NCBI RefSeq assembly: GCF_000515255.1
Contig: NZ_KI911559.1
Coordinates: 1,153,548-1,217,547, forward strand
DNA length: 64,000 bases
Reading direction: 5' to 3'
DNA from: Rhodovibrio salinarum DSM 9154
GTDB lineage: Bacteria; Pseudomonadota; Alphaproteobacteria; Kiloniellales; Rhodovibrionaceae
Shown piece by piece: positions 13,564 through 17,472 of the stretch. The notes beneath the pieces were generated by a model. It had not been told where the DNA came from. It ran no database searches and saw nothing but the letters and a program-made list of their open reading frames with translations. Both the position numbers and the translations under genes were made by a program. The first letter of the stretch is position 1; the number at the start of each line of letters is the position of its first letter.

Positions 13564-14184
13564 TCAGTTCGGGGTGAGCGGCTTGACGAAGGTGAAGGCG
13601 CCGCGTAGCTCGCCCAGCGCGAAGCCGGTGGCCGCGTCGGCTGGATAGCGCGCGTGGATCGCCTGCTGAACCTCCGGCGCCACATCGCTGCCGTGACAGG
13701 CGAGGCAGAGGTCCTGGGTGGGGATCGCCTTCATATAGTGCAGGTAGCGCCGGTTGCCTTCCTCGATGATGGCGGCACTTTCCATGTTCTTGAAGTCTTC
13801 GCCGGCGGCGTGGCGTTGCTGGAAGTCCATCAGCACCGCGCGTTCGCGCACGCTGGGGCTGTTGCGTGGGTTGCGCACCTTGAGTGCCGTGCGGCCGATG
13901 GCCCAGCCGCCCTGATCGGAGACGCTGCCCGCGATCGCCGGCGCAACCGCGCCACACACCCCGATCGCATGCGCCGGGCCGCCATCCTCGATCCCGTTCT
14001 GAAGCTCGCCCATCAGCCTGGTCGCGAAAGCTTTCATCAGGCCGCGGGCCTCTTGGAGTTCGGCCGCCGGCACGTCGCCGGTTGCCGCCGGCGCCTCATC
14101 GGCGCGGGCGCTTCCGGTCGGCAAGCCCGCAAGCGTAGCCATGGCCAGGGCTAGCGAAGCCGTGGTCAGCAGACGCTTCATCAT
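13564..14184 (-). CDS. Tll0287-like (DUF3365) periplasmic haem protein
   Basis: 206 residues. Sec signal peptide (MMKRLLTTASLALAMATLAGLPTGSARA) and a DUF3365/Tll0287-like domain. Typical family segments are seen: AIGVCGAVAPAIAG, GWAIGRTALKVRNPRNSPSVRERAVLMDFQ and the haem c motif CLACH near residues 165-169. Members are sensor- or cytochrome-like haem proteins of the periplasm or of sensor kinases; this one has no kinase part. Its promoter carries an ATTCA-N6-TGAAT repeat like that ahead of the sulfite dehydrogenase. Function unknown; redox or sulfur-stress sensing is inference. Confidence 0.85.
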   Translation of the reverse strand: MMKRLLTTASLALAMATLAGLPTGSARADEAPAATGDVPAAELQEARGLMKAFATRLMGELQNGIEDGGPAHAIGVCGAVAPAIAGSVSDQGGWAIGRTALKVRNPRNSPSVRERAVLMDFQQRHAAGEDFKNMESAAIIEEGNRRYLHYMKAIPTQDLCLACHGSDVAPEVQQAIHARYPADAATGFALGELRGAFTFVKPLTPN

Positions 14185-14342: not shown

Positions 14343-14720
14343 CTACAGCCGCTTGATCGCAACCCAGTACTGATTCGGGGTATTGGAGGTCAGCATGCGC
14401 ACCCGGATGTGGTCGGCGCGCGGGTCCATGTCGGTTTCGAACTCGAAATCGAGGGCCAGCCCGCCCTCCTGGATTCCTTCCTCAAACCGCCCGCGGAAGA
14501 AGGGATTGTCCATACAGGGCGCGATTTCGGTGAAGAAGTTGTGGTTGATCCGACGGGCGAAATCGATTTCCACGATTTCGCTTTCGATCCGGTTGTAGCC
14601 GACGATCCGTCCCGCGCTGTCCAGCTTAAGGATGCCGAATGGCAATGCATCGAGCTGTTCCTGGGGCATCGCGTCCAACCGAGTGGCCAGGTTTGGATCA
14701 CCGAAGTCGATCGCCGTCAT
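14343..14720 (-). CDS. pyp: Photoactive yellow protein (PYP) blue-light receptor
   Basis: 125 residues, the same length as Halorhodospira halophila PYP, and alignable without gaps over most of its length. Chromophore residues fall on the canonical numbers: Tyr42 (GYN), Glu46 (IES) and Cys69 in IAPCMDNP, which would bind p-coumaric acid as a thioester. Also kept are NFF (61-63), YW (118-119) and KR (123-124). Departures from the H. halophila protein: Val50 for Thr, Ile52 for Arg, Ser47 and Glu51 for Gly, Thr96 for Phe, Met98 for Tyr. AAGGAG lies 13 nt before the ATG, rather far. A CoA-ligase-like gene in the same cluster could activate the chromophore. No tyrosine ammonia lyase gene is in the window. 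Confidence 0.95.
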   Translation of the reverse strand: MTAIDFGDPNLATRLDAMPQEQLDALPFGILKLDSAGRIVGYNRIESEIVEIDFARRINHNFFTEIAPCMDNPFFRGRFEEGIQEGGLALDFEFETDMDPRADHIRVRMLTSNTPNQYWVAIKRL

Positions 14721-14842
14721 TTGGGAGTCCCGTCTCCTTAGCGTGCCCGTCGTCGACGCTGGTCTCAGCACCGACAGTCTAAGCCTCATAAAGGGAGGCT
14801 GTCGTTAAGGCATTAACTTAATTTAGTTTTCTGTACGTGACA

Positions 14843-15340
14843 TCAGCCGCTGTAGATCGCTCCGCCCAAGACCGCGCTCACTGTTTTGCCGTCTTCCGAC
14901 AGCGGGAGCAGCAGGCGTTCGAACTCGCCGACCGGTCCGCCGTCGTTGAAGTTATAGCGCATGTATTCCCGTGTCGGCCGGACCTGTTCGACGCAGGCTT
15001 GATAGCTCTTGAAGAAGCTGCCGGCGCCAGCATCGATCAGGGTCCCCGTGTAGCGCTGTCCGAGTTGCTGTTCCAACGCGCTCCCGACCATATGGAATTG
15101 GAAGCGCAACGGGTTGTACAGCACCTCGGCCAGGATCAGGTGCGGCAAATGTGAGGTCAGGTGACTTGGGTCGATGTCGCTGCGCCGTGGCATGTCGGCG
15201 TTCCCACGCTTGGCGCGCCAATAGTCCGCCAGATCGCGCAGAGCCGGCGTGCGCAACTTTCCGAATGTCTTCTCCAGGGTCACCAAGTCCAAAAAGTGAA
15301 GCTCTATCGTTGCTTGGAATAAGGGCCCGCGAGGAAGCAT
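14843..15340 (-). CDS. PAS_5-family protein in the PYP locus
   Basis: About 165 residues, forming one PAS_5-type domain (pfam07310-like). The hallmarks are LADYWRAKRGNADMPRRSDIDP (about residues 32-53), LPHLILAEVLYNPLRFQFHMVGSALEQQLGQRYTG, and the hydrophobic C-terminal strand. No output domain and no cysteine-lyase motif are seen. It lies between the CoA-ligase-like gene (103 nt gap) and pyp (122 nt gap), all on the minus strand. The start is uncertain: ATG 15340 or ATG 15424. Members of this family are usually of unknown function. Its place suggests a PYP partner or a second sensor; that is inference only. Confidence 0.72.
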   Translation of the reverse strand: MLPRGPLFQATIELHFLDLVTLEKTFGKLRTPALRDLADYWRAKRGNADMPRRSDIDPSHLTSHLPHLILAEVLYNPLRFQFHMVGSALEQQLGQRYTGTLIDAGAGSFFKSYQACVEQVRPTREYMRYNFNDGGPVGEFERLLLPLSEDGKTVSAVLGGAIYSG

Positions 15341-15443
15341 GGTTGCCCCAATGGCGCGCGATAGACGCCTACCACATTTTCTGTCAAAAATCAGTGTATA
15401 ACGGCTGGCAATGATCCAGGTCATAGCCCTGGAAGCCGGACGC

Positions 15444-16676
15444 CTAATGTGTGTCGAGCGGCCAGTCGGTTTCCTTGCCGAGCGCGTCGCGCGGAACAGT
15501 ATCCGAAACCGTGTAGGTGATCGGGCGTTCTGCCGGTTGCAGCGTCGTTTCCGCCCAGCGCCGGACGTCCCGGCGCAGCGCAAGGGCATCCGTGCCGCGC
15601 TCGGGGACCAGCAGCGCCTTCAGCCGGTTACCGCTGGGCCGTACGCGTGCGTCCTGAACGCCTGGACACCTGGCTAGTTTGCGCGCGATGGCATCGGGAT
15701 GCACCGTGACCCCGGCGACCGTCACCGCGCCGTCCAGGCGGCCAGTGGGGCACAGGTGCCGTGGTCCTTCCCAAACCAGCCTGTCGGGGGGCTGCACGCG
15801 TGCCCCGTCGCTGCTACGCACCAGGGTGCCGGGGGCGTCGTTTTCCGGCTGCCCGTCCCATGCCTCTGCGGTCGCCCAGGTCGCAAGCAGTTCGAAGGGA
15901 TGGTTGGGATCGTCGCGTAGGCCGATGCCGGCGGTCTCGCTCGACCCGTAAACCTCCACGATCCGGGCGAAGCCGGTTTCGTTGACCAGACCGCAGGCGG
16001 TTTCCGCGTCCAGCGGCGCGGCGGAGGAGGTGCCCGCGACACCTTTTGGCACGTCGGCCAGGGCTCGATGGAGGTAACGCCAGACCGCGGGCACCGCGAC
16101 CACGAGATCGCGTGGGGCCAGGTGCCGGCGAAGGGCGCCCGCGCCCTCGGCACTTAGGTCCAGGACGGGAACGCTGAGCGCGCGCGGCAGCAGCACGGTG
16201 AAGATGAAGCCATAGATATGATGGGCGGGCACCAGCGATACGATCCGACGCCGTCCGGGCAGGTGATCTGCGAGGACGCGTGCTTCCGCCCAGAGCTGTG
16301 CGGCCGAATGGACCACCCGCTTGGGATCGCCTTGGCTGCCGGAGGACGTGAATATGAACCGTTCGGGGCCCTGGGCCCAGCTTTCCGCAGCGAAATCCAC
16401 CCAGCTGCCGAGGTCCCGGCGCGCCAGCAGCAGGTCCTCCCGACCCAACCGGCGCAGATCGAACACATCCGCGACCCGTTCGGCAAGCTGCAGGCAGCCC
16501 AGGGAATCCGTGCCGAGGTCGGCCTCGTCCAGTCGGCGCGCCCGGCTCAGCGTCGCCAGCCGCGGCGCGCCGTCGGTAAACTGCTCGGGCGCATGGGCCA
16601 AGAGGCTTGCCAGCACGCGCCAAGCGTCGGTTTCATCGAGCGGAGGGCACGGCGGCAAAGGGGCGGTGTTGGACAT
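15444..16676 (-). CDS. pcl: AMP-forming acyl/aryl-CoA ligase, probable p-coumarate:CoA ligase of the PYP system
   Basis: 410 residues, a short member of the ANL adenylating family. P-loop-like motif FTSSGSQGDPKRVVHS (about residues 109-124), then RIVSLVPAHHIYGFIFTVLLPRAL, the YGSSETAG motif, PTGRLDG in the hinge region, and the catalytic Lys in RDALGKETDWP near the C-terminus. The position beside pyp suggests it makes p-coumaroyl-CoA for chromophore loading. The family also includes aryl-polyene and xanthomonadin-type ligases, so substrate needs proof. The N-terminus has an LGTDSL stretch resembling a carrier-protein motif. It starts only 34 nt after the purC stop. Confidence 0.75.
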   Translation of the reverse strand: MSNTAPLPPCPPLDETDAWRVLASLLAHAPEQFTDGAPRLATLSRARRLDEADLGTDSLGCLQLAERVADVFDLRRLGREDLLLARRDLGSWVDFAAESWAQGPERFIFTSSGSQGDPKRVVHSAAQLWAEARVLADHLPGRRRIVSLVPAHHIYGFIFTVLLPRALSVPVLDLSAEGAGALRRHLAPRDLVVAVPAVWRYLHRALADVPKGVAGTSSAAPLDAETACGLVNETGFARIVEVYGSSETAGIGLRDDPNHPFELLATWATAEAWDGQPENDAPGTLVRSSDGARVQPPDRLVWEGPRHLCPTGRLDGAVTVAGVTVHPDAIARKLARCPGVQDARVRPSGNRLKALLVPERGTDALALRRDVRRWAETTLQPAERPITYTVSDTVPRDALGKETDWPLDTH

Positions 16677-16710: not shown

Positions 16711-17472
16711 CTATTGAACGGTCTTCGGCCCCTTCAAGTCCAGCGGCCCAGCTTCGGGCAGCACGCCCAGGCGCCGCGCGACCTCCTGATAGGCCTCCTC
16801 GACCCCGCCCATGTCTCGGCGGAAGCGGTCCTTGTCCATCCGCTCGCCGCTCTCGACGTCCCACAGCCGGCAGGAATCGGGGCTGATCTCGTCGGCGAGC
16901 ACGAGGCGCATCTCCTCGTCCTCCCACAGCCGACCGAACTCCAGCTTGAAGTCGACCAGCGTCAGCCCGCAACCGATGAACAGGCCCTGCAGGAAGTCGT
17001 TCACCCGCAGCGACATCTGCATCACTTCATCCAGATCCTGGGTCGCCGCCCAGCCCATGGCGGTGATGTGCTCTTCGGTGATCAGCGGGTCGTCCAGCTC
17101 ATCGGACTTGTAGTAATACTCGATGATCGAGCGGGGCAGGCGGCCGCCTTCCTCCAGCCCGAAGCGCTTGGCGAAAGATCCGGCGGCGACGTTGCGCACC
17201 ACCACCTCGATGGGCAGGATTTCGACTTCCCGGACCAGCTGCTCGCGCATGTTCAACCGGCGCATGAAGTGCGTGGGCACGCCGATGTCGTTCAACCGGC
17301 TCATGATGAACTCGCTGATCCGGTTGTTCAGCACGCCCTTACCGGTGATCGTGCCCGTCTTCTTGTTGTTGAAGGCGGTCGCGTCGTCCTTGAAGTACTG
17401 CACCACGGTGCCGGGTTCGGGCCCTTCGAACAGGACCTTGCCCTTGCCTTCGTAAATCCGTCTGCGTCGCAT
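16711..17472 (-). CDS. purC: Phosphoribosylaminoimidazole-succinocarboxamide synthase
   Basis: 253 residues, normal length for bacterial SAICAR synthase, which joins aspartate to CAIR in purine synthesis using ATP. Clear landmarks: [30 protein letters not shown] at the N-terminus (phosphate-binding GKGK), [29 protein letters not shown], and [12 protein letters not shown] with the Mg-binding acidic [14 protein letters not shown]-like segment. The downstream neighbour is the PYP-locus ligase. Confidence 0.96.

Follow-up and report, generated by a model that had tools for sequence, protein, structure and literature searches.

The photoactive yellow protein (PYP) of Rhodovibrio salinarum DSM 9154, a halophilic purple bacterium, is a true but unusually divergent member of its family, and the main interest of its locus is that this divergent lineage has its own PAS_5 partner. 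We examined the locus within a 64,000-nucleotide stretch of the genome (the window) whose first-pass annotation had also presented PYP as rare and implied a full chromophore pathway; both claims are overstated. Our preferred reading, which we hold with somewhat better than even confidence, is that the locus encodes a blue-light module in which a p-coumarate ligase (pCL) would load p-coumarate on PYP, and PYP would signal via the PAS_5 protein to a kinase or to chemotaxis. PYP is among the best-studied photoreceptor proteins, and the signaling targets of single-domain PYPs are still largely unknown (PMC9664959). A constant PAS_5 partner gives a concrete binding candidate, and a PYP–PAS_5 relay, if true, would give single-domain PYPs a new way of passing on their signal.

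Positions 14343–16676 hold exactly three genes, and these and their flanking genes are listed in Table 1. The successive intergenic gaps from purC to the Tll0287-like gene are 34, 103, 122, and 158 nt. The gene order is identical in Rhodovibrio sodomensis, the nearest named relative, whose PYP is 86% identical. Canonical PYP loci have the order PYP-pCL(-TAL), where TAL is tyrosine ammonia lyase; here, instead, PAS_5 lies directly upstream of PYP, and pCL, which canonically follows PYP, lies upstream of the PAS_5–PYP pair and behind purC. The first-pass annotation was right to describe a PYP with a ligase two genes upstream, but it missed that the intervening gene is a PAS_5 gene marking a separate PYP lineage. 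Possibly, purC is the head of the locus transcript; a promoter and terminator scan of the locus gave nothing above chance. The Tll0287-like protein, which carries a CLACH motif, is encoded downstream of PYP in R. salinarum and R. sodomensis alike and could be a haem sensor or a passenger gene; as a syntenic neighbor, it is at most a candidate member of the PYP system.

Table 1. Genes of the PYP locus and its flanks, in minus-strand order (window positions).
Feature	Position	Strand	Remarks
purC (SAICAR synthase)	16711..17472	-	flanking gene, 34 nt ahead of pCL; synteny shared with R. sodomensis
PYP-type p-coumarate ligase (pCL), 410 aa	15444..16676	-	TIGR02372; carrier-protein-like N-terminal domain and short ANL adenylation domain
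PAS_5 (PF07310, MopJ-type) single-domain protein, 165 aa	14843..15340	-	122 nt upstream of PYP start
Photoactive yellow protein (PYP), 125 aa, divergent PAS_5-linked lineage	14343..14720	-	Y42, E46, C69 kept
Tll0287-like protein (PF11845), CLACH haem-binding motif	13564..14184	-	downstream of PYP; syntenic in R. sodomensis

The PYP reading frame ends in a single stop, and its product aligns with PYP without gaps and, as the first-pass annotation had stated, over its full length. It matches the TIGR02373 photo_yellow model across positions 2–124 of 124 (E = 5.4e-30) at 104 bits, which is below the curated equivalog cut-off of 143 bits. TIGR02373 recovers just ∼20% of PYP homologues (PMC9664959), so a score under the cut-off leaves PYP membership possible. 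In a phmmer search, residues 3–125 matched PYPs of the PDB with E = 8e-24, and identity to canonical PYPs is 34 to 37%. The annotation had also suggested modeling the protein; an AlphaFold model built with 55 homologues (pLDDT 91.7, pTM 0.86) has the full-length PYP fold with its N-terminal cap, and when this model was searched with Foldseek, the first 40 PDB ranks were all PYPs or PYP-derived, with TM-scores up to 0.92. A whole-genome search found no second PYP in R. salinarum.

The protein between pCL and PYP is a member of the PAS_5 family (49.3 bits against PF07310, over a Pfam gathering score of 22) but is not MopJ, since it reaches 42.7 bits against the MopJ equivalog NF051868, far below the curated cut-off of 200. 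Like MopJ of Caulobacter crescentus (PMC4432633), it is an alphaproteobacterial protein with a single PAS_5 domain of ∼165 aa; unlike MopJ, it is paired with a PYP. This pairing extends beyond the window. A PAS_5 gene or domain lies directly upstream on the same strand of all nine PYPs of one clade and of 0/110 other PYPs, where a broader PAS_5 profile returned weak, nonadjacent, or cross-PAS matches only. The nine comprise those of Rhodovibrio (including two R. sodomensis loci), five from Skermanella, and one from another Azospirillaceae genus (genome G494); our search of 82 Azospirillaceae genomes yielded six PYPs of the lineage. In the PYP tree, a branch with 99/97 support separates the nine from the rest; a second change counted there arose from a duplicate entry of the sequence from the Skermanella genome G404. 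The PAS_5 tree covered 35 domains, and in it the nine PYP-linked ones likewise cluster together (93/90, 94% of bootstrap trees), apart from 26 PAS_5 paralogues of R. salinarum, G404, G494, and G515. G494 sits on a long branch, and its placement differs between the two trees. Plasmid records contained only canonical or distant PYPs (26–34% identity), none near this clade.

The form of the partner varies. At a second PYP locus of R. sodomensis, whose PYP is 67% identical, a PAS_5 gene is again directly upstream, and in G494, a stand-alone PAS_5 gene ends 6 nt ahead of PYP. In all five Skermanella genomes, PYP is preceded by a PAS_5 domain. We read one upstream gene in full (G404), and it encodes a hybrid kinase, dCache-PAS-HisKA-HATPase-REC, with a C-terminal PAS_5 tail; three further Skermanella loci have upstream ORFs of similar length with a like tail. 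Assignment of these tails to PAS_5 is based on phmmer with the window PAS_5 protein (E about 1e-18) and on their place in the PAS_5 clade rather than on Pfam, which reported PAS_5 in only one of three (E = 0.006). The upstream stop codon and PYP start codon overlap by 4 nt (ATGA) in 4/5 Skermanella loci. Genome G515 carries a canonical PYP identical to that of Skermanella aerolata, and several PYPs of the 82-genome set match those of named Azospirillaceae records exactly, which places the set in this family.

We were concerned that PYP might be an ordinary functional photoreceptor whose PAS_5 neighbor is an unrelated gene, kept adjacent by shared ancestry of the region. The nine loci are related by descent and come from only three genera, so they are not independent; the independent cases number ∼4 (Rhodovibrio locus 1, R. 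sodomensis locus 2, Skermanella, and G494). PAS_5 genes are also common in these genomes, with 5 to 11 in each of those examined, and it is generally not known what single-domain PYPs signal to (PMC9664959). Nevertheless, R. salinarum has only 11 PAS_5 genes in a single 4.18-Mb contig, the pair is kept at the duplicated R. sodomensis site in a completely different neighborhood, and it recurs in Azospirillaceae with different neighbors; purC, pCL, and Tll0287 do not accompany it. The partner PAS_5s form a single clade, and in Skermanella the two genes overlap. We therefore consider an unrelated PAS_5 neighbor unlikely, although it is the strongest competitor to a functional pairing. We found no earlier description of a PYP–PAS_5 partnership in the literature searched, where PYP and PAS_5 occur together in one general PAS survey; neither PAS_5 nor Rhodovibrio is mentioned in the main text of the 2022 study of PYP neighborhoods (PMC9664959).

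Turning to the chromophore pocket, we compared the window PYP with the single-domain PYP of Halorhodospira halophila (clade A of PMC9664959). The two share length, fold, Tyr42, Glu46, Cys69, Ala67, Pro68, and Phe62, with 36 to 37% identity in a full-length ungapped alignment. The window protein differs, besides its score below the TIGR02373 cut-off, by T50V, R52I, T70M, Y94F, F96T, and M100P in the alignment, where residue equivalences within the loop 94–105 are provisional because alignment and model are least certain there (block pLDDT 79–85). The first-pass reading of the pocket was thus correct for Tyr42, Glu46, and Cys69, all of which align without gaps, but it overlooked the loss of several other pocket residues (R52, T70, F96, and M100). 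Tyr42 and Glu46, the hydrogen-bond pair, are both present, and Cys69 is invariant in every row of the PYP alignment. Across the PAS_5-linked clade, T70 is replaced by Met in 9/9 members versus 0/110 other PYPs, R52 is lost in 9/9 versus 1/110, F96 is lost, M100 is Pro or Asp, and H108 is Arg. Mutations of Phe96 slow the PYP photocycle, and Met100 has been proposed as a re-isomerization catalyst (PMC9664959). Because R52, F96, and M100 are lost, we predict that PAS_5-linked PYPs have an altered photocycle, probably slower and spectrally shifted. The photocycle of a lineage without R52, T70, F96, and M100 would show which residues set color and recovery.

The same substitutions could instead mean that the protein is a neofunctionalized, PYP-like PAS domain that has given up p-coumarate binding and either responds to some other input or plays a structural role beside the PAS_5 protein. 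Besides the clade-wide loss of R52, T70, F96, and M100, this reading draws on G494, whose PYP has Phe at position 42 in the alignment and whose nominally 100% complete genome has no pCL anywhere, so that chromophore binding is not certain clade-wide; on the failure to find a tyrosine ammonia lyase in the R. salinarum genome; and on the proposal that some methylobacterial Ppr-PYPs have lost chromophore binding (PMC9664959). Against it stand the retention of Cys69, Glu46, Pro68, and Ala67 in 9/9 and of Tyr42 in 8/9 PAS_5-linked PYPs, the PYP-type ligase that adjoins PYP in both Rhodovibrio species, and the pCL present in all five Skermanella genomes. Moreover, R52Q and T50V variants of PYP have been crystallized (PDB 2d02, 1f98). 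We regard loss of p-coumarate binding as improbable; PYP is most likely loaded with p-coumarate, as family knowledge and the intact residues suggest. Separately, the G494 pair (L181:5596-6654) is a candidate for a chromophore-free or differently loaded PYP.

We looked for a source of p-coumarate, since the first-pass annotation had advised a genome search for a tyrosine ammonia lyase gene. None was found in the R. salinarum genome; its sole PF00221 enzyme is hutH, which lies in a hutI-hutH-hutG run and has a Ser-His motif, whereas in genome G002, of the same family, the lyase beside a canonical PYP-pCL pair has a His-Leu motif. We take Ser-His to mark a histidase and His-Leu a tyrosine ammonia lyase. 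The complete chromophore pathway of TAL, pCL, and PYP is consequently lacking its TAL in this genome, and the cell probably does not derive p-coumarate from tyrosine but imports it or obtains it by another route. A missing TAL is not fatal to the PYP reading, because two genomes with PYP and pCL (G233 and G328) have a histidase only and G222 lacks aromatic lyases altogether. A pCL adjoins PYP at 74 of 80 named PYP loci and an aromatic lyase at 39, in line with the published finding that pCL neighbors of PYP outnumber TAL neighbors (PMC9664959).

The ligase assignment of the first-pass annotation was borne out: the enzyme lies two genes upstream on the same strand with only PAS_5 between, it is syntenic in R. 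sodomensis, and TIGR02372 (PYP-activation-type 4-coumarate ligase) is by far its best family, at 296 bits versus 59 for the next. The TIGR02372 match is full length (E = 2.3e-88), and its 296.5 bits fall below the curated equivalog cut-off of 334.7. Like the Rhodobacter capsulatus-type pCL, the window enzyme has a short ANL fold, an N-terminal Asp-Ser carrier-like motif, and the catalytic lysine; it differs in scoring below the cut-off and in replacing T115, G189, and N324. These departures from the family (T115Q, G189R, and N324T), the low score, and the presence of purC only 34 nt upstream could indicate a ligase that serves general aromatic-acid metabolism and not PYP activation. This we judge very improbable, given the margin over the next family, the pCL homologue beside PYP at 74/80 named loci, and the retention of the conserved E247, D298, R313, and K401, along with Ser58; furthermore, the short form with a carrier-like N terminus is the PYP-linked type.

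That N terminus may have a function of its own. Among 90 PYP-linked pCLs, it has the motif G-x-G-A-D-S-L-E..., in which Asp57 is present in 98% and Ser58 in 100% of the sequences. In the AlphaFold model of the window enzyme (pLDDT 92.7), the carrier-like region spans residues about 15–102, and its helices (15–27, 58–71, 80–83, and 89–101) have the topology of an acyl carrier, with the serine opening helix II; beyond this domain, model and Foldseek agree on a short adenylating enzyme. A profile of pCL N termini aligned the motif with that of E. coli AcpP at 14 bits (hhalign P = 4e-4, probability only 35%), Pfam PP-binding was reported in 1/41 members (E = 0.034), and the best 50 Foldseek matches listed for pCL were adenylating enzymes only, without a direct carrier match. 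From the invariant Ser58, the predicted topology, and the weak AcpP profile matches, we infer that the N terminus is a built-in carrier domain. Ser58 suggests that the chromophore may be loaded via a built-in phosphopantetheine arm and not via free CoA, and an invariant carrier-type serine in pCLs questions the assumed coumaroyl-CoA route. The literature we searched makes no mention of a carrier domain in PYP-type ligases.

In the blue-light module that we favor, pCL would activate p-coumarate and load it onto Cys69, light would drive a conformational change in PYP, PYP would hand the signal to the co-encoded PAS_5 protein, and PAS_5 would relay it to a histidine kinase or into the chemotaxis system. 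We infer each of these steps, that is, chromophore loading, light response, PYP–PAS_5 contact, and kinase or chemotaxis output. Passage of the signal from PYP to PAS_5 is the most likely route, on the strength of genome association. Two precedents make the output plausible: MopJ acts with DivJ and DivL in Caulobacter (PMC4432633), and the PYP-containing kinase Ppr binds CheW (PMC2993699). The Skermanella fusion of PAS_5 to a hybrid kinase also hints where the PYP signal may go. Counting against the module are the absent TAL, the Phe42 and missing pCL of G494, the clade-wide loss of R52, T70, F96, and M100, the lack of a ligase near R. sodomensis locus 2, and, among the neighboring genes that we examined, the lack of any histidine kinase or chemoreceptor gene adjoining the window pair. 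More tentatively, and at somewhat less than even confidence, PYP and its cognate PAS_5 may form a dedicated two-protein photosensor, a PAS-to-PAS relay that would dock on kinases or chemoreceptors, with pCL loading the chromophore via its putative phosphopantetheine carrier.

Known PYP systems offer partial parallels. Ppr of Rhodocista centenaria and Ppd are hybrids of PYP with a bacteriophytochrome and a kinase or GGDEF domain. Ppr likewise ties blue-light PYP input to a histidine kinase and is linked to chemotaxis via CheW (PMC2993699), whereas here PYP is separate, the link would run through a PAS_5 protein or domain, and there is no phytochrome module. The second PAS_5–PYP pair of R. sodomensis sits between two chemoreceptor genes and adjoins a PAS histidine kinase. 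It thereby resembles the clade B PYP beside sensorless chemoreceptors in Leptospira (PMC9664959) but differs in having a PAS_5 partner, and no chemoreceptor gene adjoins the window copy. This R. sodomensis region (L023:3534-10131) may be a phototaxis cluster, one that lacks a ligase of its own.

Finally, PYP is less scarce than the first-pass annotation held, which called it rare and known from few described chromosomal loci. One pattern scan across genome contigs turned up 304 stretches that encode PYP relatives, ∼2% of the sampled Alphaproteobacteria carry a PYP, and a 2022 survey counted 789 PYP homologues (PMC9664959). Three of our loci (L005, L018, and L019, from genomes G079 and G210) encode a long protein with a C-terminal PYP domain and Gln at position 46; its N-terminal part resembles a chemotaxis-type signaling region, and it is possibly a one-piece photoreceptor-transducer.
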